From the IMG/VR virus record IMGVR_UViG_3300022902_000084, positions 1 to 22,650 of that record: a stretch of DNA of 22,650 nt, one strand, 5' to 3'. The notes beneath the pieces are model-generated. The model was not told the origin of the DNA and ran no database searches. It was given only the letters and a program-made list of their open reading frames with translations. This document shows positions 6,807-22,044 of the stretch, one piece after another (within the stretch, counting starts at the first letter, position 1; every line of letters begins with the position of its first letter). A program made the position numbers and the translations under genes. The DNA comes from a virus.

Positions 6807-7193
6807 ATGGCTCTGCGCGCAAGCCCGCGAGGGATGAGCGACACCACCATCGTTGACTGGATCTCCTCGCTCAACAACCTGTCGGGGCAGGAGTACCGGG
6901 TCGCGATGTACTCCGGTACCGGACTCATCATCGCCTCCACGACCGATGCGCCCGCGGGCATCATCAAGAACGGCGGCACCGACAGCGCCGTTCAGGTCAC
7001 GCTGCACGTCGGCGGCTACTCCGAGGGCGAGGCCGGTGGCGCGTTCTCCTTCGGCGAGATGCTGATCCCTGACTCGCAGGGCCGCCTCGTCGCTTCCATT
7101 TCCGCCGCCGAGCCGAAGGCCGCCATGGCTCTCGCCGACGCAAGCGCCGCCGGGCAGGTCATCCCGCTCAAGGTGCTCGGAGGGGCAATCTGA
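6807..7193 (+). CDS. Putative head decoration (capsid cement) protein
   Basis: A 128-residue protein between the scaffold and the major capsid gene, the normal place for a decoration protein. The middle resembles small beta-barrel capsid cement proteins: a segment near GTGLIIASTTDAPAGII (38-54) followed by VQVTLHVGGY, which fits the pattern 'value, then the future value is no longer new, then G' found in these proteins. Such proteins bind the outer capsid surface and stabilise it after expansion. The start at 6807 follows a GGAAGGGGG run; the stop overlaps the major capsid start by one base (TGATG), so the two are probably translated together at high level. Identification rests on position and general pattern, so it remains tentative. 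Confidence 0.6.
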   Translation: MALRASPRGMSDTTIVDWISSLNNLSGQEYRVAMYSGTGLIIASTTDAPAGIIKNGGTDSAVQVTLHVGGYSEGEAGGAFSFGEMLIPDSQGRLVASISAAEPKAAMALADASAAGQVIPLKVLGGAI

Positions 7194-8155
7194 TGCCTGC
7201 TGGAACCTCGACTGTCTCCCCCCTGCTGACTCGACTGGTTCGCCAGCTCGGCGTCAACAACTCGTTCATCTTCGACAAGGTGCCGGGCGTGCCCTTCACC
7301 TCGCGAGATGGCTCCTACGTGCAGCTCGACGAGGGCACGTTCACCGGCGACAACAACGCCCCCGACTCCGAGATGGGCCGACGCCAGATCGGTGGCAAGT
7401 ACCGCAGCTTCGACTTCGGAACCACCGAGACCACGTTCCAGATGGAGGAGTTCTACGCGTACAAGAAGTACGATTGGGGCGAGAAGCAGAACGCGGACGG
7501 GCCGATGCTCGACACCGCCGGCCGTGCCGCCGTCCACTCGCGCCACAACATCGCGCGGGAGCTGGGCTGCCACGACCTCTTCTTCACCACGGGCAACTGG
7601 ACCAACGCGGCCACCGCCGCGGGCGACAGGTTCAACAACGTGAACTCGAACCCGCCCAACGTCGTACGCGCGCAGTGGGAGGCCACCGAGGTCTCGGCTG
7701 CCAACGGCGGCGGACGTCGCGTGATGATCATCCCGCCCGTCGCGATGAACCACCTCAAGGCGCACCCGGTCTACACCGACGTCAACGCGCGAGGCGAGAT
7801 CACCAGCTTCGGTACCCACGAGCAGATCGCCAAGTCCTTCGACGTCATGCCGGAAGACCTGTGGGTGCCCCGTGCCGTGCGCTCCACGCAGACCAAGACC
7901 CGCGCGATGACCGCCACCGAGGCGCGCATCTGGAGCGAGGCGCAGGTGTGGATGGGCTACCTGCCGACGACCATCTCCGAGGGCGAGCTGACGGCAGCGG
8001 CGTACCTCTACATGGGCAGCGACATGCCGGAAGTCCGGCGTGGCGAGGTCGACAACGGCGACGAGCGGTACGACTGGATGCGCGAAGTGTCCGTGGGTGC
8101 CTACATCGCCGTCGAGACCGGCGGTGCGCGTCTGCTCACCACCGTCTACGCGTAG
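7193..8155 (+). CDS. Major capsid protein
   Basis: A 320-residue protein that should form the capsid shell. It lies directly after protease/scaffold and decoration genes, and its length fits an HK97-fold capsid protein. Recognisable family-like sequence is DWGEKQNADGPMLDT (94-108) followed by a helix RAAVHSRHNIARELGCHDLFF (111-131) and GNW, a pattern common in capsid proteins where this stretch forms the long spine helix and nearby P-domain. No obvious N-terminal delta-domain coiled coil is present, which agrees with a separate scaffold. No cleavage site is evident. The gene is read by a coupled one-base overlap with the previous stop, and GGAGG-like sequence lies in the end of that gene. The identification is by context plus pattern, not by a full alignment. 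Confidence 0.85.
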   Translation: MPAGTSTVSPLLTRLVRQLGVNNSFIFDKVPGVPFTSRDGSYVQLDEGTFTGDNNAPDSEMGRRQIGGKYRSFDFGTTETTFQMEEFYAYKKYDWGEKQNADGPMLDTAGRAAVHSRHNIARELGCHDLFFTTGNWTNAATAAGDRFNNVNSNPPNVVRAQWEATEVSAANGGGRRVMIIPPVAMNHLKAHPVYTDVNARGEITSFGTHEQIAKSFDVMPEDLWVPRAVRSTQTKTRAMTATEARIWSEAQVWMGYLPTTISEGELTAAAYLYMGSDMPEVRRGEVDNGDERYDWMREVSVGAYIAVETGGARLLTTVYA

Positions 8156-8169
8156 GAAGGAGGCCCCCA

Positions 8170-9774
8170 ATGGGTCGTAACAGAGTACTTCCTCACAGCC
8201 CGATTCTCCTGGGTGACGCACAGGTGCAGAGCGCCTCGACGTTCACGGTGGAGCGGGGGCGGTGGTACATCGGGTCGGCTGCTGTCACGGCCTCGGCCGC
8301 ACAGCTCAACGGCGTCGAGTCGGAGCGCGTGGCCCACGCAAGCGCCAACATCTCGGTCGGCCGCCTCGTGTACATCTCCGGCGTCACCAGCGACGTCCCG
8401 GCCGTCACCCTCGCGGGTGCGTCTGCTCCGGCCCATGCGGCGCAGTACATGGTCACCTCGGCGATCACGTCGGGGAGCATCGGCCGGATCGACAACGTCG
8501 GCCGGATCTCCGGGCTCTCCACCGCGGATCTCGGTGCGGCTGACGGCAACGTCTACCTCGGCAGTGCAGCGACGGGCCTCATGGCGTCGAGCACGTCGGG
8601 GCCGCTGCTGATCACGCAGCGTGTCGCGCAAGTCGTCACCCGCGACTCGGGTACAGGCGGCGTACTGGAGATCATGATCGGCCCGGCTCAGCGCCTCGGT
8701 CGTGACGCGATCCAGCTGTCGGCGATCCAGTCCAATTCGATCGCCGCCGGGCATGTCGTTCAGCGTCACGTCGGCGACTCCGCCATCTCCGCGGCTCACG
8801 TGCAGATGTCGGCCCTGTCCGGCCTGCAGATCAAGGCGTCGGGCGTCGTGTCTTCGCGACTCGCCGTTGACGCGGTGGGCCAGCGCCACATCGGCAACAG
8901 CCAGATCAGCGGGGCACACCTGCAGGTCTCGGCGGTGGCTGCAGCGGCGATCCAGTCCAACGCGGTCACGCAGCCGAAGATCGGCGACAGCGCCATCAGC
9001 GCCGCACACGTGCAGATGTCGAGCCTCAGCGGTCTCCAGATCGCTGCGTCCGGTGTCGTCTCGTCTCGCATCGGGATCGACGCCATCGGGCAGAGGCACA
9101 TCAGCGACTCGGCGATCAGCGCCGCACATGTCCAGATGTCCAGCCTTTCCGGGCTGCAGATCGTGGCATCCGGCGTCGTCTCCTCGCGGATCGGCCTCGG
9201 CGCCATCGTCGAGCGGCACATCGCGTCCAACGTGATCTCCGCAAATAAGATGGTCATCACCGCCGACGAGACGATCGTCGGAAACGCGACAGGATCGGGG
9301 CTCTCCCGTGACTGCCTGCCCAAGGTGCTCGCCGAGTCGTTCACCGCGGCCGACTTCTCCGCAGCGGCGAACGCCGATACGGTGGGTTTCGCTGTGTCGA
9401 TCCCCGATCAGGCGGTCGTCCAGGGCGCGTGGTTCGATCTGACTACCCTGTGGGGCAACGGCGCCACGGGCTCCAGTCTGTCGAACGTGCACGTTGACTT
9501 CGGCCTGTCCGGCGCGGTGACCATCGATACCGATGGCTTCTGCAACGGCTACCCGATCTTCAGCGGTGTCGACGCAGTCGGTACGAAGAACCCGATGAGC
9601 TACCCGGTGCCGCAGGTGCTGTTCAGCGGTGGCCCGGTCTACGTCACCAGCAACGCTCAGTTGCCGATCATCACGATCAGCGCGACCGGCGTGAACATGT
9701 CGAACGTCAGCAACGGCGGTCTTCGTGCGTACGTGATGTACATCGAACAGCCGGTGGGCTCCGCCATCACCTGA
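8170..9774 (+). CDS. Probable head fibre with 10-residue repeats
   Basis: A 534-residue protein in three parts. Residues 1-180 are beta-rich and resemble a capsid-binding domain. Residues 181-370 consist of 19 consecutive decads of the form [IVLM]xxx[AGSHQ][IVL]xxx[HRKQ], for example VGDSAISAAH, VQMSSLSGLQ and IAASGVVSSR; every four make a 40-residue super-repeat, one of which has lost a decad. Similar decads (IADGAVTTAK type) occur in phi29-like head fibres, which form supercoiled trimeric helix-turn-helix rods. Residues 380-534 form a beta-sandwich domain like those at the tips of such fibres. The start ATG at 8170 follows AGGAAGGAGG (8154-8163). The open frame extends further upstream to 7474 inside the capsid gene, but that part is out-of-frame shadow. 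Position right after the capsid gene supports a head, not tail, fibre. Confidence 0.7.
   Translation: MGRNRVLPHSPILLGDAQVQSASTFTVERGRWYIGSAAVTASAAQLNGVESERVAHASANISVGRLVYISGVTSDVPAVTLAGASAPAHAAQYMVTSAITSGSIGRIDNVGRISGLSTADLGAADGNVYLGSAATGLMASSTSGPLLITQRVAQVVTRDSGTGGVLEIMIGPAQRLGRDAIQLSAIQSNSIAAGHVVQRHVGDSAISAAHVQMSALSGLQIKASGVVSSRLAVDAVGQRHIGNSQISGAHLQVSAVAAAAIQSNAVTQPKIGDSAISAAHVQMSSLSGLQIAASGVVSSRIGIDAIGQRHISDSAISAAHVQMSSLSGLQIVASGVVSSRIGLGAIVERHIASNVISANKMVITADETIVGNATGSGLSRDCLPKVLAESFTAADFSAAANADTVGFAVSIPDQAVVQGAWFDLTTLWGNGATGSSLSNVHVDFGLSGAVTIDTDGFCNGYPIFSGVDAVGTKNPMSYPVPQVLFSGGPVYVTSNAQLPIITISATGVNMSNVSNGGLRAYVMYIEQPVGSAIT
8710..9279 (+). repeat. Coding repeat array: 19 decads in the head fibre
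   Basis: Each unit is 30 bases (10 residues), grouped in fours (120 bases). The third group lacks one unit, so the GDSAISAAH-type units lie 40, 30, 40 and 40 residues apart. The repeats are conserved in protein but have many synonymous differences, so they are old and not recent slippage products. Confidence 0.85.
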
Positions 9775-9783
9775 TCTTCCTGA

Positions 9784-9813
9784 GAGGTGCCGAGGCTGAG
9801 ATCTCGGCGCCTC
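9784..9813 (+). other. Intergenic GC-rich hairpin
   Basis: GAGGTGCCGAG (9784-9794) pairs with CTCGGCGCCTC (9803-9813) around an 8-base loop, an 11-bp stem with one G-U pair. It lies in the 67-base gap after the head fibre gene. No U-run follows, so it is not a standard terminator; it could slow transcription, stabilise the upstream message or be a processing site. Confidence 0.5.
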
Positions 9814-9841
9814 AACTGGACGATCAGCAGGAGGGTCGACG

Positions 9842-10615
9842 ATGACCACGCTTTCAAATCCGCTCTTCACCGGGGCTGCAACGCTCGGCGGCGTGAGCGG
9901 GACCGACTACTACGATCGGATCAGGGTGGGCACCGGCTCGCCGGGATACGCAGGCGCCGCGGGCACGCTGTACGTCGGTGGGATCGCCGAGTTCGACGCG
10001 GTGGTGTACTTCAATGAAGACATCAGCATGGCGGGCAACCGTCGCCTCGTGATGGCGGACGGCTCCACGACCGCGTGGATCATGGGTACGGGCTCACTCG
10101 CAGCGCCCAAGCGCTATCTCACCTTCGACACCAGCGACGAACAGGTCGAGATCGGCACAAAGCTCGAATACGAGGTCGCGAGCGGCATCTACAACAAAGC
10201 CCTCGCGGGGCTTGACATCACGGCGACACGTCAGGGCGAGTGGTTCGCCTACACCCTCGGCAGCGCCACAGGCATCGGCGGCCCGCTCTCAGCGCCCAAC
10301 CCGTACAGCGGGACCGAGGGCGTGCTGCTCGACTGCTACATCAAGATCACGGGCGCGGCGTCGGGCAACGAGTCCCACGTCAACGTGGGTATCACCAGCG
10401 GCGCGAGCAACGTGGCGAACATCATGAAGGACGTACCTGTCACGGCAACCGGCACCCTGTTCCGCGGACCGACTGCGACGAGCGGCGGCAGCGGTGTCAG
10501 CGGGCGGCCTGTCGTGTGGGGCACCACCAACGTTCTACTCGTCACGGGCAAGGGCGGTACGGCGGTGTCGTCGTTCGCAGCCACCCTCTACGCACACGTC
10601 AAGCAGACGGATTAG
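9842..10615 (+). CDS. Beta-rich fibre-like structural protein
   Basis: A 257-residue protein of unknown exact role. The segment GTLYVGGIAEFDAVVYF (residues 41-57) followed by short hydrophobic repeats is like the LYVxGxxEVDG strands of trimeric phage fibres, and the C-terminal 120 residues are Gly/Ser/Thr-rich with alternating strands, suggesting a jelly-roll type tip. It begins with ATG at 9842 after AGGAGGG (9830-9836) and lies between the head fibre gene and the neck genes, so it may decorate the head or neck. It might instead be a tail component displaced in the map. No membrane or catalytic motif is visible. Confidence 0.55.
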   Translation: MTTLSNPLFTGAATLGGVSGTDYYDRIRVGTGSPGYAGAAGTLYVGGIAEFDAVVYFNEDISMAGNRRLVMADGSTTAWIMGTGSLAAPKRYLTFDTSDEQVEIGTKLEYEVASGIYNKALAGLDITATRQGEWFAYTLGSATGIGGPLSAPNPYSGTEGVLLDCYIKITGAASGNESHVNVGITSGASNVANIMKDVPVTATGTLFRGPTATSGGSGVSGRPVVWGTTNVLLVTGKGGTAVSSFAATLYAHVKQTD

Positions 10616-10623
10616 GAGAGGCC

Positions 10624-11097
10624 ATGTACGTCCGGGCGATTGTCTCACAGGTGAGCGGCGGCGGATGGGGCGACCCGATCCGCGTGGCCGTTCCGAGCAC
10701 ACGGCGAGGTACGATCGAAGGCTTCGGCGTCAAGGCGTCGACTTCGGCACAGTCGCAGGTGACGTTCCAGTTGGGTTACGCCACGTTCGGCGCGTCCGCT
10801 GCGTCTGCCGCGATGGTGTGGCCATTCAACGGGATCACCGAGGTCCCGCCAGCCGCGAACGACTGGAACGTGTCTGGCCTCGCAGGCGGTAGCGCGGCCA
10901 CATTCCAGCACGTAGAGACGTGGACCGACGACCCGATGCGCTACGACTACTCGATCAGCGCAGCGGCGCCGTTCATCTACTCCGGGGCTGCGCTCATGTC
11001 CGGCGCTTCGGCAGCTGGCCTCGGTGTCGCGGTGATCGGCAACGTCGCAGGCAACGCCGTCGACCTCACCTTCTACTTCGACATCGGACCCAACTAG
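10624..11097 (+). CDS. Beta-rich structural protein of unknown role
   Basis: A 157-residue protein, starting at the ATG at 10624, which follows GGAGAGG; the TAGGAG overlaps the previous stop. The frame is open further upstream (to 10240) but only as shadow of the previous gene. The sequence alternates short hydrophobic strands with Gly/Ser/Ala turns, with a VAVPSTRRGTIEGFGVKA strand-turn segment (24-41) and no Cys. No family is recognised. It lies between a fibre-like gene and the neck genes, so it is probably another virion surface protein, but this is context only. Confidence 0.5.
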   Translation: MYVRAIVSQVSGGGWGDPIRVAVPSTRRGTIEGFGVKASTSAQSQVTFQLGYATFGASAASAAMVWPFNGITEVPPAANDWNVSGLAGGSAATFQHVETWTDDPMRYDYSISAAAPFIYSGAALMSGASAAGLGVAVIGNVAGNAVDLTFYFDIGPN

Positions 11098-11595
11098 ATG
11101 CCGTGGAACTCCACCCTCGTCAGCGCCCTGCGGTTCATCGACGTGAAGCCCACGTCGAGCCTCTCCGCGGGTAGCGCCACGATCTCGAGCCCGATTCGCA
11201 CGGGTGACATGTCGGCGATTTGGATGGAGCGGTTCTACTACGTGTACGGCGAGTTGGCGGCGTGCGGCATGAGCGTTGGAGTGGCGACGGCTACCCCGGG
11301 CAGGTATCTCATGGCGGGCCTCGAGGCGCGGTTCACGTCTGCCGATTGGGTGATCCACGCCGACGCCACAGCAGGCCGTGAGGTCGCGCCACAGGGGCGG
11401 CACCTGCTATCCGCAGCCTCGGCCATGCTCACCCGCTACTGCGACAACCCCGCGGCGATCTCCGCGCTGTCAGGCGGTGTGTTCGATACATCCTTCCGCC
11501 TCGTGACAGACGGCTACTTCCAAGACGACCCCTCGGATCTCACCGACATCGACGCGCAAAATGACGTGGTGTTCACGCGGGAGATCGAGCAGTGA
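11098..11595 (+). CDS. Putative head-tail connector (neck) protein
   Basis: A 165-residue protein whose ATG immediately follows the preceding TAG, so it is probably translated by re-initiation. It lies just before the gpG-like tail completion gene, the place of neck or head completion proteins. The protein has mixed helical and beta character, with a helix around LLSAASAMLTRYCDN (102-116) and an acidic end. The family is not recognised by sequence, so the call rests on gene order. Its stop overlaps the next start by four bases (GTGA). Confidence 0.5.
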   Translation: MPWNSTLVSALRFIDVKPTSSLSAGSATISSPIRTGDMSAIWMERFYYVYGELAACGMSVGVATATPGRYLMAGLEARFTSADWVIHADATAGREVAPQGRHLLSAASAMLTRYCDNPAAISALSGGVFDTSFRLVTDGYFQDDPSDLTDIDAQNDVVFTREIEQ

Positions 11596-12260
11596 CCGAC
11601 GGACTCACCATCTCGATCAAGGGCCCGGATACCGCTGAATTCACCACGCGGATCGCCACGAACCTTGGCAAGCTCCCGACGCAGTGGCTGCCGCGTATGT
11701 GGTGGTGGTTCGTGCAATTCTTCGGCCAAGTGCCGACGAAAAAGCAGTTTCAGAAAGAGGGCGGCTACCTCGGCGGCACGCAGTGGGCGCAGATCGATCC
11801 AGGATACCGCGCGTGGAAGGTGGAGAAGTACGGCCCTCCCGCCGACTGGATCGGCCGTCGGTCGCGCGACATGATGGGCGTATTCACCGACATCCACGGC
11901 AGCGCTACCGGGATCTTCGAGGTGAGCGGCGGCGGCAGCGTGTGCACGTTCGGCGGCGAGGTGTTCGCGCAGTCCACGGGCTCCACGCGTGCGGGCTCGT
12001 TCAGCCTGCAAGACTACGCGCAGTTTTTCGACGAGCAGCGGGCGATCTACGGCGACCCAGGATCATGGCCCGCGGAGTTGGAATTCCAGATCAACAAGAT
12101 GATGAACATGGTCTACATGCTCACGATGCGCGGCGCGGTGGGCTCATCGAGGGAAGGCACGATCCGAGCAGACGGCGAGATCAGCCCGACGACGTGGCTT
12201 GACAACTTCCCCCGCGGGCAGATCGACAGCTACATCGACGGCATGGTGCGTGACATATAA
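11592..12260 (+). CDS. Tail completion protein, Mu gpG (virion morphogenesis)-like
   Basis: A 222-residue protein with the hallmark layout of the phage virion morphogenesis (gpG/tail completion) family: an N-terminal helix with Trp-rich segment (31-44), then GGYLGGTQWAQIDPGYRAWKVEKYG (57-81), which fits the 'GG..W..L...Y...K..' motif, then IGRRSRDMMGVF (87-98), matching the 'tG.L..s' region. Such proteins finish the tail end or neck so that the tail can join the head. The GTG start at 11592 overlaps the previous stop as GTGA. The stop overlaps the next ATG by one base (TAATG). Residues after 130 are less typical. Confidence 0.65.
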   Translation: MTDGLTISIKGPDTAEFTTRIATNLGKLPTQWLPRMWWWFVQFFGQVPTKKQFQKEGGYLGGTQWAQIDPGYRAWKVEKYGPPADWIGRRSRDMMGVFTDIHGSATGIFEVSGGGSVCTFGGEVFAQSTGSTRAGSFSLQDYAQFFDEQRAIYGDPGSWPAELEFQINKMMNMVYMLTMRGAVGSSREGTIRADGEISPTTWLDNFPRGQIDSYIDGMVRDI

Positions 12261-12799
12261 TGGCCGTCTCACCACGATTCAGCGAGGCTGTAGCCAACGA
12301 CGTCGAGGCCATGTTCGACGATGACACCATCGGCCTCGGCGCACGCTGCACCAACGTCAACACCCGCACGGCGGACAAATACACGCTGCCGACGAAGTGG
12401 ACCAGCGACTTCACGCAGCAAACAACCTCGCACCTGCGCCCGCCGTTTTTCGAGACGTACACCAGCGGGATTCGCGCTGACGAAGTGATCACCGTCGGGA
12501 CCAACGAATTCGAGATCGATTGCATCGTCAAGTGCTGGCTACCCGATCGTGAGACGCGCGCCAACTGGACCGCTGGCGCGAAGCTCTATCGCCGCCTGGA
12601 GTGGGCGATCATGGAGCTGATGATCGAGCGCCGATCGTGGGACGGGCGCACGCTGAACGCCGCCGCCCGCATCCTCAACGTGTTGAATATTCGTGTCGAG
12701 CCGATGATCCGGTGGGACACGAGATCGAACCAAATGGGAGGCGTCGGGGCGCAGGTGTCGTTCACCGTGACCATCGCCGAGGAAGACGTCTACCTTTAG
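12260..12799 (+). CDS. Putative tail terminator protein
   Basis: A 179-residue protein between the tail completion gene and the tail tube gene, the usual place of the tail terminator, which caps the finished tube. The C-terminal third ends in VEPMIRWDTRSNQMGGVGAQVSFTVTIAEED, a strand pair with alternating pattern common in such proteins, and a long helix (AGAKLYRRLEWAIMELMIERR) covers residues about 104-124. No family is assigned with confidence, so the function is inferred from order. The ATG at 12260 overlaps the previous stop and has no strong ribosome site, which fits coupled translation. Confidence 0.55.
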   Translation: MAVSPRFSEAVANDVEAMFDDDTIGLGARCTNVNTRTADKYTLPTKWTSDFTQQTTSHLRPPFFETYTSGIRADEVITVGTNEFEIDCIVKCWLPDRETRANWTAGAKLYRRLEWAIMELMIERRSWDGRTLNAAARILNVLNIRVEPMIRWDTRSNQMGGVGAQVSFTVTIAEEDVYL

Positions 12800-14991: not shown

Positions 14992-17121
14992 ATGGCTGTC
15001 AAATTCACCATCACGGCGGACGGCAAGAAAGCGGAAGCCGCGCTGCGCAAGGTCGCCAAGGAAGTCGACGGGCTCGGCAAGGTCACGAAGACCACGGGAA
15101 AGGAGACGGAGAAGTTAGGCAAAAAGACGACCACCGCCACGAAGGGGATGAGCACAGGGTGGTTGAAGGTCGGCGCCGCGATGGCCGGGATCACCATCAT
15201 CGGTCACCGGCTGGTTAGGTTCTTCGGCAACGCGGCCGAGGCAGCGGGCGAACAGCAGGCGGCAACCGAACGCCTACGGCAGTCACTCGCCAACGTGGGC
15301 GAATCGTGGGACGTACACGGTGAGCGGCTGCAAGAGGCAGCGACGGATCTACAAAAGCTGACGGGCGCGGCAGACGAGCAGACACTAGCGTCCATGGCGC
15401 TCGGCGTCTCGCTCGGCGTCCCCGTTGAAAAGCTCGGCGACTACTCCATGGCCCTCGCCAATGCCGAGGCCGCAGGGCTTCCGATGGAGACGCTGCAGCG
15501 CGGGTTGTCGGCGTCGTTCGAGGGCAGCGCAACAGCGCTCGGCCGCTACCTCCCCGCGGTGCGTAGCTTGACCGAGGAGCAGTTGCGGGCGGGCGGTGCG
15601 CTGGACTTGATCAACGAGCGATTCGGGGACCTCGCCAAGTCGCAGTCGACCACGTGGTTAGGCGCAGTGAACCGGCTCAAGGGAGCGTGGGGCGATCTCG
15701 TCGATGAGGGGTTCGGCCGCATCATCACCGACTCCCCTGTCGTGCGGGCCACGATGATCGAACTCGCCTTAGAAATGCTCGACCTCGCCAACGACACGAC
15801 CGACGCAACCGAGGCGATGAGCGGGGCTGTGGGCGAGTTCGCCAAGGGCGCGATCGACGTGCTTGAGGCGCTGGTTAAGTCGTTCAACTTCGTCTCCCGC
15901 GGGTGGGTGGCTCTGCAAAACACCATCGTCGCCCACGAAAAGGCGTCGAACGAGGTGCGGCGTGCGCAGCTTGAAGACGCCCTCTCGATGAACAAGGGCT
16001 TTCTTGCCGCGAAGCAGGAGGAGTTGGAGCAGACCGACCGCACGACGGCGCGTTATCAAAAGCTACTTGAGCAGATGGGGCCGTACCACGACACGATCAA
16101 CCTGCTCACCGGGCAGATCGCCGAGTTGACCGACGAGATCACCGACGAGAGCAGGGAACTCGCCACGCTGCAGGGCGATTTTTCCGCGCTACAGGGAACG
16201 CTCGACAACACCACAGACCGATTCATAGGCATCCGCGAACGCATCGCAGCAACCGCAGCCGCCATCGGCCAGCGCGGACAGCCCGGCACGCTCGCAGGCA
16301 ATCTCGGCGGCGTCAACGACGAACTAGACGAACTCGGCGCAGAGCGTGGGCAGAAGACGGGGCTAGGCAAGGGGCCGACAAGCGGCAAGTTGGGAGACGC
16401 GTTCGCAGCGGTAGCCCCCGAAGCCGACACCGGCCTCGGCGACTTCGAGTCCGGCTTCACCGCCACCGCCGACTCCGTAACCACCGACATCAACCGCATG
16501 GGCGAGGCGTTCGGCACGTTCATCGGCCAACTCGCCACCGCCGACGACAAGCAAGCCGCGCTGAAGTCGGGCGCCAAGTCCATGGCGATCGCAGCGGTGC
16601 AGGCGATCGGGCAAGTGCTCACCGCGCAGCTCAGCGCCACGGCGGCATCGTCAGCGGCGAACATCACGGCAAGCGCAGCGCAGACGGCAGCGGCTACCCC
16701 GGCCGCCATCGTCACGAGCATCGGCGACCGTGGCGCGAACGTCGGGATCGCTGCTGCTGCCCTCGCAGCCGGAGTCGCGGGAATGACCGCTATCATCGGC
16801 GCAATCGGCGACCGCGGAATCGACGCCATCCCAGGCGGCGGGCGCATGACCGTGAACAAGCGCGGCGATGAGTTGCTGCTCGACCCCGTCGGAACAACGA
16901 AATTCCACGCCAACATGGACGCGATGGACAACCTGATCCGCAACGCGGGCGGCGGCGTGCTCGCTGGCATGCGAGGCGGCACGCAACAGCAGGCCGTACA
17001 GACGAACGTTACCGTGAACATGGACGGACGCACCATCGCCGAGATCGTGGATGTACAGATGGCACAACTCGCGCGATTCGGCCGCAGTGAATTCAGCCAA
17101 GCCGCGCTGGTGACGCCATGA
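14992..17121 (+). CDS. Tail tape measure protein
   Basis: A 709-residue protein, the longest of the tail genes after hub and portal, following the chaperone pair. The N-terminus is Lys/Thr/Ala-rich and helical (1-55), followed by a hydrophobic segment GWLKVGAAMAGITII (56-70), long helical regions rich in Ala, Glu and Gln (about 80-420), a Gly-rich section, and a second strongly hydrophobic stretch ANVGIAAAALAAGVAGMTAIIGAIG (about 581-605). This is the typical profile: coiled extended core, membrane-interacting segments, and a C-terminal end. The protein fixes tail length and may help DNA enter the host; by the usual 0.15 nm per residue the tail would be about 0.1 micrometre. No peptidase or lysozyme motif is seen. 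The stop overlaps the next start as ATGA. Confidence 0.9.
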   Translation: MAVKFTITADGKKAEAALRKVAKEVDGLGKVTKTTGKETEKLGKKTTTATKGMSTGWLKVGAAMAGITIIGHRLVRFFGNAAEAAGEQQAATERLRQSLANVGESWDVHGERLQEAATDLQKLTGAADEQTLASMALGVSLGVPVEKLGDYSMALANAEAAGLPMETLQRGLSASFEGSATALGRYLPAVRSLTEEQLRAGGALDLINERFGDLAKSQSTTWLGAVNRLKGAWGDLVDEGFGRIITDSPVVRATMIELALEMLDLANDTTDATEAMSGAVGEFAKGAIDVLEALVKSFNFVSRGWVALQNTIVAHEKASNEVRRAQLEDALSMNKGFLAAKQEELEQTDRTTARYQKLLEQMGPYHDTINLLTGQIAELTDEITDESRELATLQGDFSALQGTLDNTTDRFIGIRERIAATAAAIGQRGQPGTLAGNLGGVNDELDELGAERGQKTGLGKGPTSGKLGDAFAAVAPEADTGLGDFESGFTATADSVTTDINRMGEAFGTFIGQLATADDKQAALKSGAKSMAIAAVQAIGQVLTAQLSATAASSAANITASAAQTAAATPAAIVTSIGDRGANVGIAAAALAAGVAGMTAIIGAIGDRGIDAIPGGGRMTVNKRGDELLLDPVGTTKFHANMDAMDNLIRNAGGGVLAGMRGGTQQQAVQTNVTVNMDGRTIAEIVDVQMAQLARFGRSEFSQAALVTP

Positions 17122-18290: not shown

Positions 18291-20393
18291 GTGGCTTTCT
18301 CCGCGCTCGCCGATAAGGCCATCACGAACGTCGGCGTGTTCGTGTCCGTGGACGTGCTCGACACGAGCACGGGCACCACGACAACCCTGTACTTCTCCGA
18401 CGGGCAGCGGCCTGCGGCTGATTGGGTAGGCGATGGCACCGTGCGCGAGTGGGATGGCAAGATTCGGGGCTGGGAGATCGTCAAGCCGAATCAGAAACTA
18501 GGCACGGCGCGGCACGCACACGCGACGATGCGGCTTTCTTTGTGGGTGTCAGGATACGACGACGACCTGTGGGATTACCTCACCCCGGATCACCAATGGG
18601 AGCGAATCGACGAGGGTGTAAACGCGTGGCTCGTCGACTTGGATCAGTCTCCAGGCAGCGGATCGCGTAGGCAGTTTATCGGCATGGTTGGAAGCGAGCC
18701 CGACAACATCATGCCCGATTCCGCGTTCACTGTGGATGGCGTTGGCGGATGGTATAACACGCGCGTTCCTACCCGCCGGTTGGCCACGCCGGATGGCGGG
18801 TGGACCGAATACGGCGAAGCCCGGAACCGCGCCTATGCGTCGATAAGTGGGGCTGTCACAGCGGCGCAGACGCACATCAACCTGTCGAGCGTTGGCGGCT
18901 TTGGAAACGTGACAGCAGGCGACGTGATGGTGTTGATGGACGGCACGGGCGCATCGGGCCCCCCCATCCCCCGTGAAGCATGCTACCTGTCGGGGATCAA
19001 TACAGACGGCGCTAACGCGTCATCCGTGGACGTGCGGCGGGGCTACGGGTTCACGTCAGCGACAAGCCATATCGACCGGCAGACAGCATGGTTCAGCAAG
19101 AACGGGATCTCCGATCCCTATACCAAAGCGTCGGCATACGAACAGCAACTCGGCTTCGTGTTCGGGTATATGTCGGCATATCGCGGCATCGTGATGCCCA
19201 TGGTTCCTTACACGCTGCAAGACGACCATTACCTGTTCTATTGGACACGAGGATCGGGCGGCACTGCGTCCCGGTCGTGGTTGTTTCAGCATGACGAATT
19301 CTGGCGCAACATCGGCGCGGAGAACAGCAGCTTCAACGACTACGGCGACTCGTACAAATTCGACAGCGCGATCCTTGGCACCGGTGACGAAAATTGCGAG
19401 CCTCACTGGCAACTCGCCGGGACTTACTTCAGGACGTCGGGCCAATCAGCCACGTCGGGGCACGGCCCCCACACCGGCAGCGGGTGGAACAGCGAGGCGT
19501 GGGACGTTTACGCCCGTGTGCCTGGGATCAAGAACCCCAACAACGGCATCTATTCAGCCGCACCCGGCATCGCGCGCTACCTCGCCACCAATTCGCGGTG
19601 GGCGTGTGGGATCACGAGCGCCTTCCACGTCTCGGCGATGTCGAATTGGAACGCGGGCGGATGGTTCGACGAGTTCGCGGGGCTAACGTACCCGTTCCGC
19701 ATCGCAGGCAACGTGCCAGCGTTCGACAACACCGAGGAACCGCCGAAGCTCGCAGACGTGATCGCCGAACTATGCGACATCACCAACTCGGATCTCTTCT
19801 ATCGCGGAGGCCAGTGGTATCCGAAGCGCCGCACGGTCGCCGCGACTTCGACGGCAACGATCACACGGTCGGACGTGATCGGGCACATCGAGATGAGCCG
19901 CGGATCTCGGCATAAGGATTACATCAACGAACTAGTAGCCGAGACGGCGCAAAGCGTTCTTTCCGAACCTGGAACTAAGGCGACGGACGTCCCGGCCCCC
20001 GTGCCATATAAGTCGGTGCTCCAGGACGACGACGAGATCAACAACCTCGGCGGATACATCGACGGCAAGGTGTCGTTGACGATCTCGCGGAAGTGGTGGC
20101 GCTTTGACCTGTCGGCCGACTGGAAGATCAGCAACACGAAACGGCAACAACGTCACCTGCAGTGGTGGCGTGCTGCGCATGCAAAGCAACTCGATCACAG
20201 GGCGCAAGCGCAGGTGTGGACCGTCACGAAACTACCAGCCCGATACCTGTGGCTCGAACAGGGCGACACCATCGAATTTGACGACGTGCCGGGAATAACT
20301 ACACGCAAGGGACAGATCCGGGACATCCGGATCACGGGTGGCCAGGATCAGCCGGTTACGCTCAAGGTGAGATCATGGCACATCAACTTCTAG
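18291..20393 (+). CDS. Putative tail hub / tail-associated protein
   Basis: A 700-residue protein following the distal tail gene. Two features suit a central tail-tip hub: LADVIAELCDITNSDLFYRGGQWYP (487-511), the helix-strand pattern seen in hub domains of phage tails, and a C-terminal strand GDTIEFDDVPGITTRKGQIRDIRI (658-681) followed by VTLKVRSWHI, which is also typical. Residues 184-267 hold a small domain (TAAQTHINLSS, GDVMVLMDG, RRGYGFTSATSH) similar to the two inserts of the tail tube protein. The GTG start at 18291 is supported by GGAG (18281-18284) with a six-base spacer. No enzymatic motif such as a lysozyme or peptidase is visible, so a structural or receptor-contact role is most likely. 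Confidence 0.65.
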   Translation: MAFSALADKAITNVGVFVSVDVLDTSTGTTTTLYFSDGQRPAADWVGDGTVREWDGKIRGWEIVKPNQKLGTARHAHATMRLSLWVSGYDDDLWDYLTPDHQWERIDEGVNAWLVDLDQSPGSGSRRQFIGMVGSEPDNIMPDSAFTVDGVGGWYNTRVPTRRLATPDGGWTEYGEARNRAYASISGAVTAAQTHINLSSVGGFGNVTAGDVMVLMDGTGASGPPIPREACYLSGINTDGANASSVDVRRGYGFTSATSHIDRQTAWFSKNGISDPYTKASAYEQQLGFVFGYMSAYRGIVMPMVPYTLQDDHYLFYWTRGSGGTASRSWLFQHDEFWRNIGAENSSFNDYGDSYKFDSAILGTGDENCEPHWQLAGTYFRTSGQSATSGHGPHTGSGWNSEAWDVYARVPGIKNPNNGIYSAAPGIARYLATNSRWACGITSAFHVSAMSNWNAGGWFDEFAGLTYPFRIAGNVPAFDNTEEPPKLADVIAELCDITNSDLFYRGGQWYPKRRTVAATSTATITRSDVIGHIEMSRGSRHKDYINELVAETAQSVLSEPGTKATDVPAPVPYKSVLQDDDEINNLGGYIDGKVSLTISRKWWRFDLSADWKISNTKRQQRHLQWWRAAHAKQLDHRAQAQVWTVTKLPARYLWLEQGDTIEFDDVPGITTRKGQIRDIRITGGQDQPVTLKVRSWHINF

Positions 20394-21210: not shown

Positions 21211-22044
21211 ATGGCTAACGGTCCTTGGGGTTTCAAGCGTACGGGCGGACGGTTCGATCTGCAGATGGGCCCGCGCATCACCGAAGCGTCAGCGGGCGAT
21301 AGCGCCACGTGGGCGCAGTTGCTGAGCACAGCATCGTCGGTCGCCTTCGCCACGTCAGCAGCGCACGCTGGTAGCGCGACGTTCGCGGATTCGGCGGCAT
21401 ACGCTGCTAGCGCCGGATACGCGGCAAGCGCTGGGCACGCTGGATCGGCAACTTTCGCGGATTCGGCGGCGTCAGCGGGCTACGCGGTGTCGGCCTCTTA
21501 CGCTGAGTCGGCTGCCTATGCTGCTTCTGCCGCCTATGCCGCGAGCGCTGGATACGCTGCGAGTGCTGCCTACGCTGCTAGCGCCGGATACGCGGCAAGC
21601 GCAGGCCATGCCAACAGCGCCACCGCTGCGACGTCGGCGGCAAAGGCGAACACCGCCAGCGCCATCGACGACGGGGTGGCGAGTGCGACGGGCGCGGAGA
21701 TCGTGTCGGCTGTCGACTTGATCAACAGCCACGTGCACGCGCGGTTGCGGATGCGGTCGCTTGGCCCGCTCGCGGTGAATGTCAAGGCTCCCACGTCGGC
21801 GCAGTGGCTGATCTTCAACCCAGCGAGCAATCTGCAGGTGAGTTTCCCTGCTGCGAGTTCGGTGCCGGGTACCGAGTGGGACATCACAACGATCGGCGTG
21901 TCCGAACTGTCGTGCATCGCCGGAAGCGGCGACTTCATCGGCGTCGCCGGTGCCGGATCGTTCGTGTCGTCGGTGGTGCTCTCGTCGCCGCTTGAGACGG
22001 TCACAATTCGGGCGTTCGGCTCCAACGCCCTGATCGTGGTTTAG
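21211..22044 (+). CDS. Fibre-like protein with hexapeptide repeats
   Basis: A 277-residue protein starting at ATG 21211 after GGAG (21201-21204). Residues about 43-146 are built from 6-residue units of the form xYAxSA (AYAASA, GYAASA, GHAGSA, TFADSA), with a three-residue slip ASA near 87-89 that changes phase by half a repeat. Such Ala/Ser/Tyr periodic segments are common in phage tail fibres, where they form a thin trimeric rod. The C-terminal domain (about 223-277, WDITTIGV...GSNALIVV) is nearly half identical to the next small protein. It lies after tip proteins, so it probably contributes to adsorption. The part between (150-220) is a linker with INSHVHARLR. Confidence 0.65.
   Translation: MANGPWGFKRTGGRFDLQMGPRITEASAGDSATWAQLLSTASSVAFATSAAHAGSATFADSAAYAASAGYAASAGHAGSATFADSAASAGYAVSASYAESAAYAASAAYAASAGYAASAAYAASAGYAASAGHANSATAATSAAKANTASAIDDGVASATGAEIVSAVDLINSHVHARLRMRSLGPLAVNVKAPTSAQWLIFNPASNLQVSFPAASSVPGTEWDITTIGVSELSCIAGSGDFIGVAGAGSFVSSVVLSSPLETVTIRAFGSNALIVV
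21337..21648 (+). repeat. Coding hexapeptide (18-base) repeats
   Basis: Tandem 18-base units encode xYAxSA. Codons vary between units, although a 32-base segment (21400-21431) recurs exactly at 21571-21602, 171 bases apart, which equals nine and a half units and reflects the inserted half-unit. This suggests an internal duplication more recent than the rest. Confidence 0.85.

Follow-up and report, generated by a model that had tools for sequence, protein, structure and literature searches.

A probable capsid fibre with an unusually histidine-rich decad-repeat stalk in a virus from IMG/VR

Trimeric phage fibres and spikes can hold metal on their symmetry axis. In R-pyocin, T4 and P2 proteins of this kind an axial iron is held by HxH motifs (PMC6116203), and in the receptor-binding protein of phage phi11 an axial iron is bound through a His-X7-His arrangement in the trimeric stem (PMC4901313). 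For phi29, the stalk of the head fibre gp8.5 is described as a regular helix-turn-helix supercoil whose two-helix unit measures 19.5 Å (PMC6116203). Against this background we analysed a repeat-bearing gene in IMG/VR virus record IMGVR_UViG_3300022902_000084, of which positions 1 to 22,650 constitute the stretch studied here (22,650 nucleotides, hereafter the window). An initial annotation had read the repeats as phi29-type head-fibre decads, with histidines that would stack near the axis of a trimeric rod in sets of three, there to bind metal ions or respond to pH.

We consider it likely that the gene encodes a trimeric virion fibre, situated most probably on the capsid, which combines an anchor, a decad-repeat rod and a tip, and in which position 10 of each decad acts as a polar slot (Table 1). 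The unique N-terminal domain would anchor the fibre, presumably by binding the capsid, residues 181-360 would build up a slender rod of three strands from short helix-plus-turn units, and the C-terminal domain would serve as a tip meeting the host or its surroundings. Within the rod, Ile, Val or Leu at positions 1 and 6, together with mostly small residues at position 5, would pack between chains, while position 10 would end each short helix, either exposed or engaged in side contacts between chains, phages filling it mostly with Lys but also with Glu, Gln, Ala, Asp, Asn, His or Arg. The terminal domains are set apart from the array by their lack of relatives: neither residues 1-180 nor residues 351-534 (the array end and the C-terminal domain) match anything in the phage collection at E<=1. 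A weak hit of the N-terminal domain in locus L263 (E 0.005) was discarded as spurious, as it overlaps, on the opposite strand, a frame that by eye resembles a real phage gene. Modelling of the full-length protein by AlphaFold2 without an alignment was unusable (mean pLDDT 33.8). As a separate observation, an antisense open frame of 574 codons (8146-9870, minus strand) spans the whole fibre gene and is likely a by-product of GC-rich codon use.

Table 1. Positions of the fibre gene, its domains, its His-ending decads and the two preceding head genes in the window.
Feature	Positions	Strand	Remarks
Short head protein without array	6831..7193	+	PF09956 Phage_cement_2, E 2e-4, just under cut-off; phrog_673 'head scaffolding protein', E 2e-7
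Major capsid protein	7193..8155	+	gene before the fibre; phrog_1005 major head protein, E 6e-20
Fibre gene, 534 aa	8170..9774	+	ATG at 8170, stop at 9772-9774; AAGGAGG directly upstream
N-terminal domain, aa 1-180	8170..8709	+	putative capsid/base anchor
Decad array, aa 181-370	8710..9279	+	18 clear decads and one degenerate
IAAGHVVQRH	8740..8769	+	His decad, QRH type
VGDSAISAAH	8770..8799	+	His decad, AAH type
LAVDAVGQRH	8860..8889	+	His decad, QRH type
IGNSQISGAH	8890..8919	+	His decad, AAH type
IGDSAISAAH	8980..9009	+	His decad, AAH type
IGIDAIGQRH	9070..9099	+	His decad, QRH type
ISDSAISAAH	9100..9129	+	His decad, AAH type
IGLGAIVERH	9190..9219	+	His decad, QRH type
C-terminal domain, aa 371-534	9280..9771	+	putative tip domain

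The fibre protein is identical in two IMG/VR contigs, L001 and L002, and in L387, and viral-contig searches for close relatives of the fibre or of the capsid protein returned the same two contigs only; the major capsid protein as query found nothing in phages. L387 is a 22.3 kb contig of a metagenome-assembled genome (MAG) named Candidatus Poribacteria, with a fibre region 100% identical to ours and zero differences from the window over the 9,602 bases fetched. Judging from this identity it may be a virus contig misbinned into that MAG, which is the only, tentative lead to a host. Between the window and L001, 13 of 14 differences fall within about 130 bases (12065-12191, in the gene at 11592-12260), a clustering that suggests local recombination or selection.

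The array comprises 190 residues in frame from residue 181, so that the nineteen decads originally described are present in length, although the last of them, MVITADETIV, is degenerate. Of the 38 slots that positions 1 and 6 provide, 37 hold I, L, V or M, a value reached by none of 20,000 shuffles, and the array shares this ten-residue period with aliphatic positions 1 and 6 with the decad-array fibre repeats of phages. The last letters of the decads read, in order, S, H,H,Q,R, H,H,A,K, H,Q,R, H,H,Q,R, H,K,V (His 8, Arg 3, Gln 3, Lys 2, and one each of Ser, Ala and Val), and exactly eight decads end in His, as had been counted, at residues 200, 210, 240, 250, 280, 310, 320 and 350. When we group the decads by similarity, four types named QRH, AAH, Q and R follow one another in that order, with a period of 40 residues; in the same grouping decad 261, IQSNAVTQPK, is of the QRH type yet ends in Lys. 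The proposed H,H,Q,R super-pattern is thereby found as a 40-residue super-repeat, in an order that H,H,A,K and H,Q,R blocks make imperfect. One decad is indeed missing, but by similarity it is the R-type decad of the second super-repeat, after decad 251, and its earlier placement in the third depends on where counting begins.

In three compared pairs of copies, DNA identity is 70-78% and protein identity 72-85%, and between copies pS (0.49) exceeds pN (0.34), with a ratio of 0.71 that, being pooled over related pairs, is to be read as mildly below 1. Because silent sites have diverged while protein identity stays this high, the 40-residue copies are old, and the protein appears to have been maintained by selection. 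The super-repeat would then have arisen by an old duplication of a four-decad block holding two His decads, and would have been kept afterwards by selection on the protein.

That these are fibre-type decads is borne out by a profile built from independent arrays, without this protein, which scores the fibre at 82 bits, against at most 4.2 bits for shuffled window arrays (19 listed of 20); the same profile gives 221 bits for a Christensenellales phage tail protein and 185 bits for the fibre of locus L266, to which we return below. On sequence grounds, the array belongs with the phage fibre and tail-protein repeats of the form IxDGAITxxK, among which it is unusually rich in His. A tblastn search found relatives in 27 phage records, 14 of them under tail-type names, one as 'virion structural protein' and 12 as hypothetical, 'predicted' or unannotated. 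Among PDB entries the array profile matches 9eg4_H ('orf16', E 1e-8) and a cyanophage P-SCSP1u fibre protein (E 2.5e-4), and, weakly, 7z4b (0.06) and 3qdh (0.34). Entry 9eg4 holds seven chains of orf16 with decads at 94-134, a copy number that would suit a T=7 capsid with trimers at threefold sites; a literature search for this entry did not find its paper. Matches to the pentapeptide-repeat entries 4yc5 and 4yei (E 0.04-0.07) and to IcmE/DotG repeats (E 5e-7 and 4e-9) were set aside as reflecting a shared five- or ten-residue rhythm only. The phi29-type label does not survive these comparisons: kinship with gp8.5 was rejected by the decad profile, which gives gp8.5 -1.1 bits, within the shuffle range, and by hhalign, at a probability of 0.02 per cent, and the head-fibre Pfam model PF11133 has no match to the fibre at E<=1, gp8.5 itself scoring 6.9e-137.

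The head-fibre role suggested earlier does agree with gene order. The genes run terminase, Mu-like portal, Mu-like protease, cement- or scaffold-like protein, capsid protein and fibre, so that the fibre gene lies in the head cluster and adjoins the capsid gene, where a capsid fibre or decoration protein might be encoded; the phi29 head-fibre gene likewise directly follows its capsid gene. Genes at 9842-12799, without an informative family match in Pfam or PHROG, leave the downstream limit of the head cluster loosely defined. Among PHROGs, the fibre is matched best by a 'head and packaging' family (E 3e-12), over the array and the start of the tip, and next by a tail-fibre family (E 6e-9). That several tail-fibre PHROGs match, that 14 of the 15 functionally named tblastn relatives of the array bear tail-type names, and that the L266 array, too, has a 'tail fiber' PHROG as its best match (E 3.5e-60) would all suit a tail fibre or baseplate stalk encoded within the head cluster. 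We regard this as rather unlikely, given a gene that stands directly behind the capsid gene and far from those at 14992, with weak tape-measure similarity, and 18291, tail-tip-like just under the cut-off; the fibre is probably located on the capsid.

To place the His endings in the context of the family, we sampled loci with a search pattern that leaves position 10 free, and found arrays in 48 of 120 loci (87 arrays, 865 decads, among the matches listed). The array finder accepted a decad if positions 1 and 6 were hydrophobic, position 5 came from a limited set and position 10 was neither Gly nor Pro; the first count took arrays of five or more decads with the signature in at least half of them, and a second count of the same loci, which allowed Tyr at position 1 and asked for the signature in 60% of four or more decads, comprised 820 decads in 53 loci. 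Among the matches listed, position 10 is Lys in 62.1% of decads, which upholds the description of Lys as the usual last residue, and Glu in 6.7%, Gln in 6.2% and His in 2.8% (24 of 865), Asp or Glu together accounting for about a tenth. Position 10 is the most hydrophilic slot of the decad, with a mean hydropathy of -3.16 in relatives, where it is charged in 79%, and -3.13 here. For relatives, the finder's rules on positions 1, 6 and 10 themselves produce part of the difference between core and polar slots, and the direct evidence for hydrophobic positions 1 and 6 is therefore the array's own 37 of 38 slots.

The array's histidines are concentrated at this polar slot: eight of nine stand at position 10 and the ninth, residue 195, at position 5. 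His makes up 4.7% of the array as against 1.5% across the window's 19 other coding sequences (P of at least 9 in 190, 0.002), and ends 8 of 19 decads as against 24 of 865 in other arrays among the matches listed, with a nominal P of 2e-8. Counted as decad types, His ends two of four (P 0.004), and since the His decads are copies of one another the independent evidence for an excess is much weaker than the nominal figure.

An AlphaFold2 monomer model of 12 decads, from 29 rows, is of moderate confidence (best model with mean pLDDT 74.9 and pTM 0.44, the other four with mean pLDDT from 73.0 down to 53.7) and shows 11 of the 12 decads with a three-residue helix over positions 8-10, so that short helices are predicted to end at the polar slot. 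Compared with models of other viral fibres, the array model gives 76 matches at E<=10, five of them at E<=0.001, with TM scores up to 0.73; compared with the PDB (Foldseek at E<=10; VIA-align), it gives no fold match.

These data bear on the suggestion that the position-10 histidines stack in threes near the axis as a metal site or pH switch. The concentration of His at one position, here and in the family sample (24 of 26 array histidines at position 10, among the matches listed), would suit such stacking, and axial iron has precedents in trimeric phage fibres and spikes. Against it, the slot in question is the most polar of the decad and, with Lys in the majority of decads and an acidic residue in roughly one in ten, unlikely to lie beside its two symmetry mates on the axis; positions 1 and 6 are the hydrophobic ones; the HxH motif of the T4 gp37, P2 and R-pyocin type is absent from the whole fibre protein; and neighbouring histidines ten residues apart would make up distinct three-His sets and not one octahedral site of six. 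We therefore judge an axial stack very improbable, and keep the metal reading in this weakened form because His-X7-His of phi11 illustrates that axial sites need not be HxH. The evidence points instead to a stalk that carries its array histidines on its polar face, not in a core that binds metal. Elsewhere, in the 20 genes checked, HxH occurs once in the portal gene (3093) and once in the gene at 18291 (18513). Towards the tail end of the window, the gene at 21211-22044 combines a six-residue YAASAG-type repeat with an HVH motif at 21730, and may be a better candidate than the decads for an axial metal site like those of T4 and R-pyocin.

If position 10 tolerates many polar residues, the His share could reflect drift alone, in a GC-rich, Lys-poor genome and with a duplication of a block that held two His decads by chance. 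Lys is indeed scarce in the 19 other proteins of the window (3.2%, with Arg at 5.9%) and falls to 46% of position 10 where a locus has at least 60% GC (4 loci, 76 decads, among the matches listed). A GC-rich sample had arrays in 17 of 120 loci, also among the matches listed, two of which are this virus (L221 and L222) and are included in that sample's frequencies. The derivation of all eight His from two decad types points the same way. What such drift does not account for is that GC pressure alone should favour Arg over His, that two Lys among 19 endings is low even relative to the GC-rich share among the matches listed (P 0.001), and that His is kept in four of five copies of each of the QRH and AAH types while their silent sites have diverged. 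Drift alone is in our view a genuine possibility, though one we would not bet on; the best account of the His share is that His was substituted into a permissive polar slot while the genome was poor in Lys, was spread by duplication and was then kept.

Retention raises the question of whether His-ending decads are found elsewhere, relatives without any His preference having been named as grounds for doubting a special role. Among 61 arrays of six or more decads with position 10 free, the maximum His share is 0.27, and none reaches 8 of 18 (among the matches listed); the outcome is nevertheless mixed, as whole groups of viral arrays turned out to be rich in paired His. One array of the GC-rich sample, in L206, has ten His decads out of 20, in K,K,H,H blocks of which one is a decad short. 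A search with an E-H..A-H pattern, and hence chosen for the motif, gave at least 120 stretches, 118 of them new loci and two already sampled (one of these being L040); the 118 loci, 112 of them array-bearing, contained 120 HH arrays among the matches listed; of 113 successive His pairs in the HH arrays, 30 are spaced by 30 residues and 27 by 40, again among the matches listed.

L206 and L266 are the same record, IMGVR_UViG_3300035698_015017, whose fibre has 20 decads arranged as K,K,H,H blocks together with a HGLGRTPALVMVLP-type C-terminus. Its fibre gene sits between protease and gpT-like capsid genes, and residues 1-128 match phrog_1731 (head and packaging, E 3e-28), which makes the protein a candidate capsid fibre. 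A search with this fibre found at least 600 stretches, 581 of them confirmed relatives among the matches listed, from which we retained 80 loci; over the 1,756 decads that make up the longest array of each of 79 of these (L388, the query's own contig, being omitted), His takes 41% of position 10, and the His share is 8 of 18 or more in 26 of the 79, several loci being near-copies. His decads are thus a recurring variant of decad stalks and not unique to our fibre.

Recurrence of this kind would be expected if the His pairs were a functional surface feature, giving weak metal or polyanion binding or a pH-dependent charge on the outside of the rod. In the sample with position 10 free, an acidic residue at position 7, seen in 29% of His decads and in 7% of those ending in Lys (28 and 435 distinct decad pairs, among the matches listed), fits that idea, but both HH samples were chosen for the motif and contain near-copies, and the fibre's own eight His decads lack an acidic position 7. 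In the samples not selected for the motif (position 10 free, and GC-rich, excluding L206 and this virus's copies), no adjacent HH occurs among 28 His decads, where 0.7 would be expected, among the matches listed and with a finder that split arrays at Tyr in position 1, a residue that follows many SEH decads. A functional surface feature is accordingly improbable in our estimation, and a surface role of the array histidines in a response to pH or metal is something that the array may, but need not, have. A broader conjecture makes paired His decads a functional submodule that recurs across many viral fibres, of which at least two, ours and that of L266, are candidate capsid fibres. There they would set a pH- or metal-dependent surface charge or stiffness and would add a third class of His site to HxH and His-X7-His, but this too is a long shot. 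Should the pairs prove functional, they would offer a simple handle on how a stalk responds to pH or metals. A search of the literature returned no paper using the repeat terms among the matches listed, which is weak evidence that paired-His decad stalks are absent from print; in environmental viruses they are frequent, and they can be fused to a head-protein domain.

Set beside the described systems, our preferred reading, a capsid fibre with a polar slot at position 10, replaces a tempting analogy with phi29 and axial metal sites by a place in a very common class of fibre repeats. The likeness to phi29 gp8.5 (PF11133) lies in gene order after the capsid gene and in the plan of anchor and stalk, whereas neither the array nor the whole protein matches it in sequence. 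With the Rod and Shaft of the R-pyocin fibre the array shares, by predicted local structure only, a very short helix and a turn per repeat in what would likewise be a trimeric rod (PMC6116203); it differs in that the R-pyocin linkers vary in length and that the buried iron there uses HxH (PMC6116203), a motif this fibre lacks. The paired-His SEH/TAH arrays of environmental viruses, cyanophages and pelagiphages (L018, L016, L206/L266) resemble it in their two adjacent His-ending decads, but have position 7 taken by Asp and position 9, just before the His, by Glu or Ala, partly forced by the search pattern, whereas our fibre lacks that Asp. Closest are the IxDGAITxxK arrays of tail fibres and host-specificity-J-like tail-tip proteins, with the same ten-residue period, aliphatic positions 1 and 6, small position 5 and polar position 10; there Lys is the usual ending (62% among the matches listed), whereas here His, Gln and Arg take its place, in a gene that adjoins the capsid gene.
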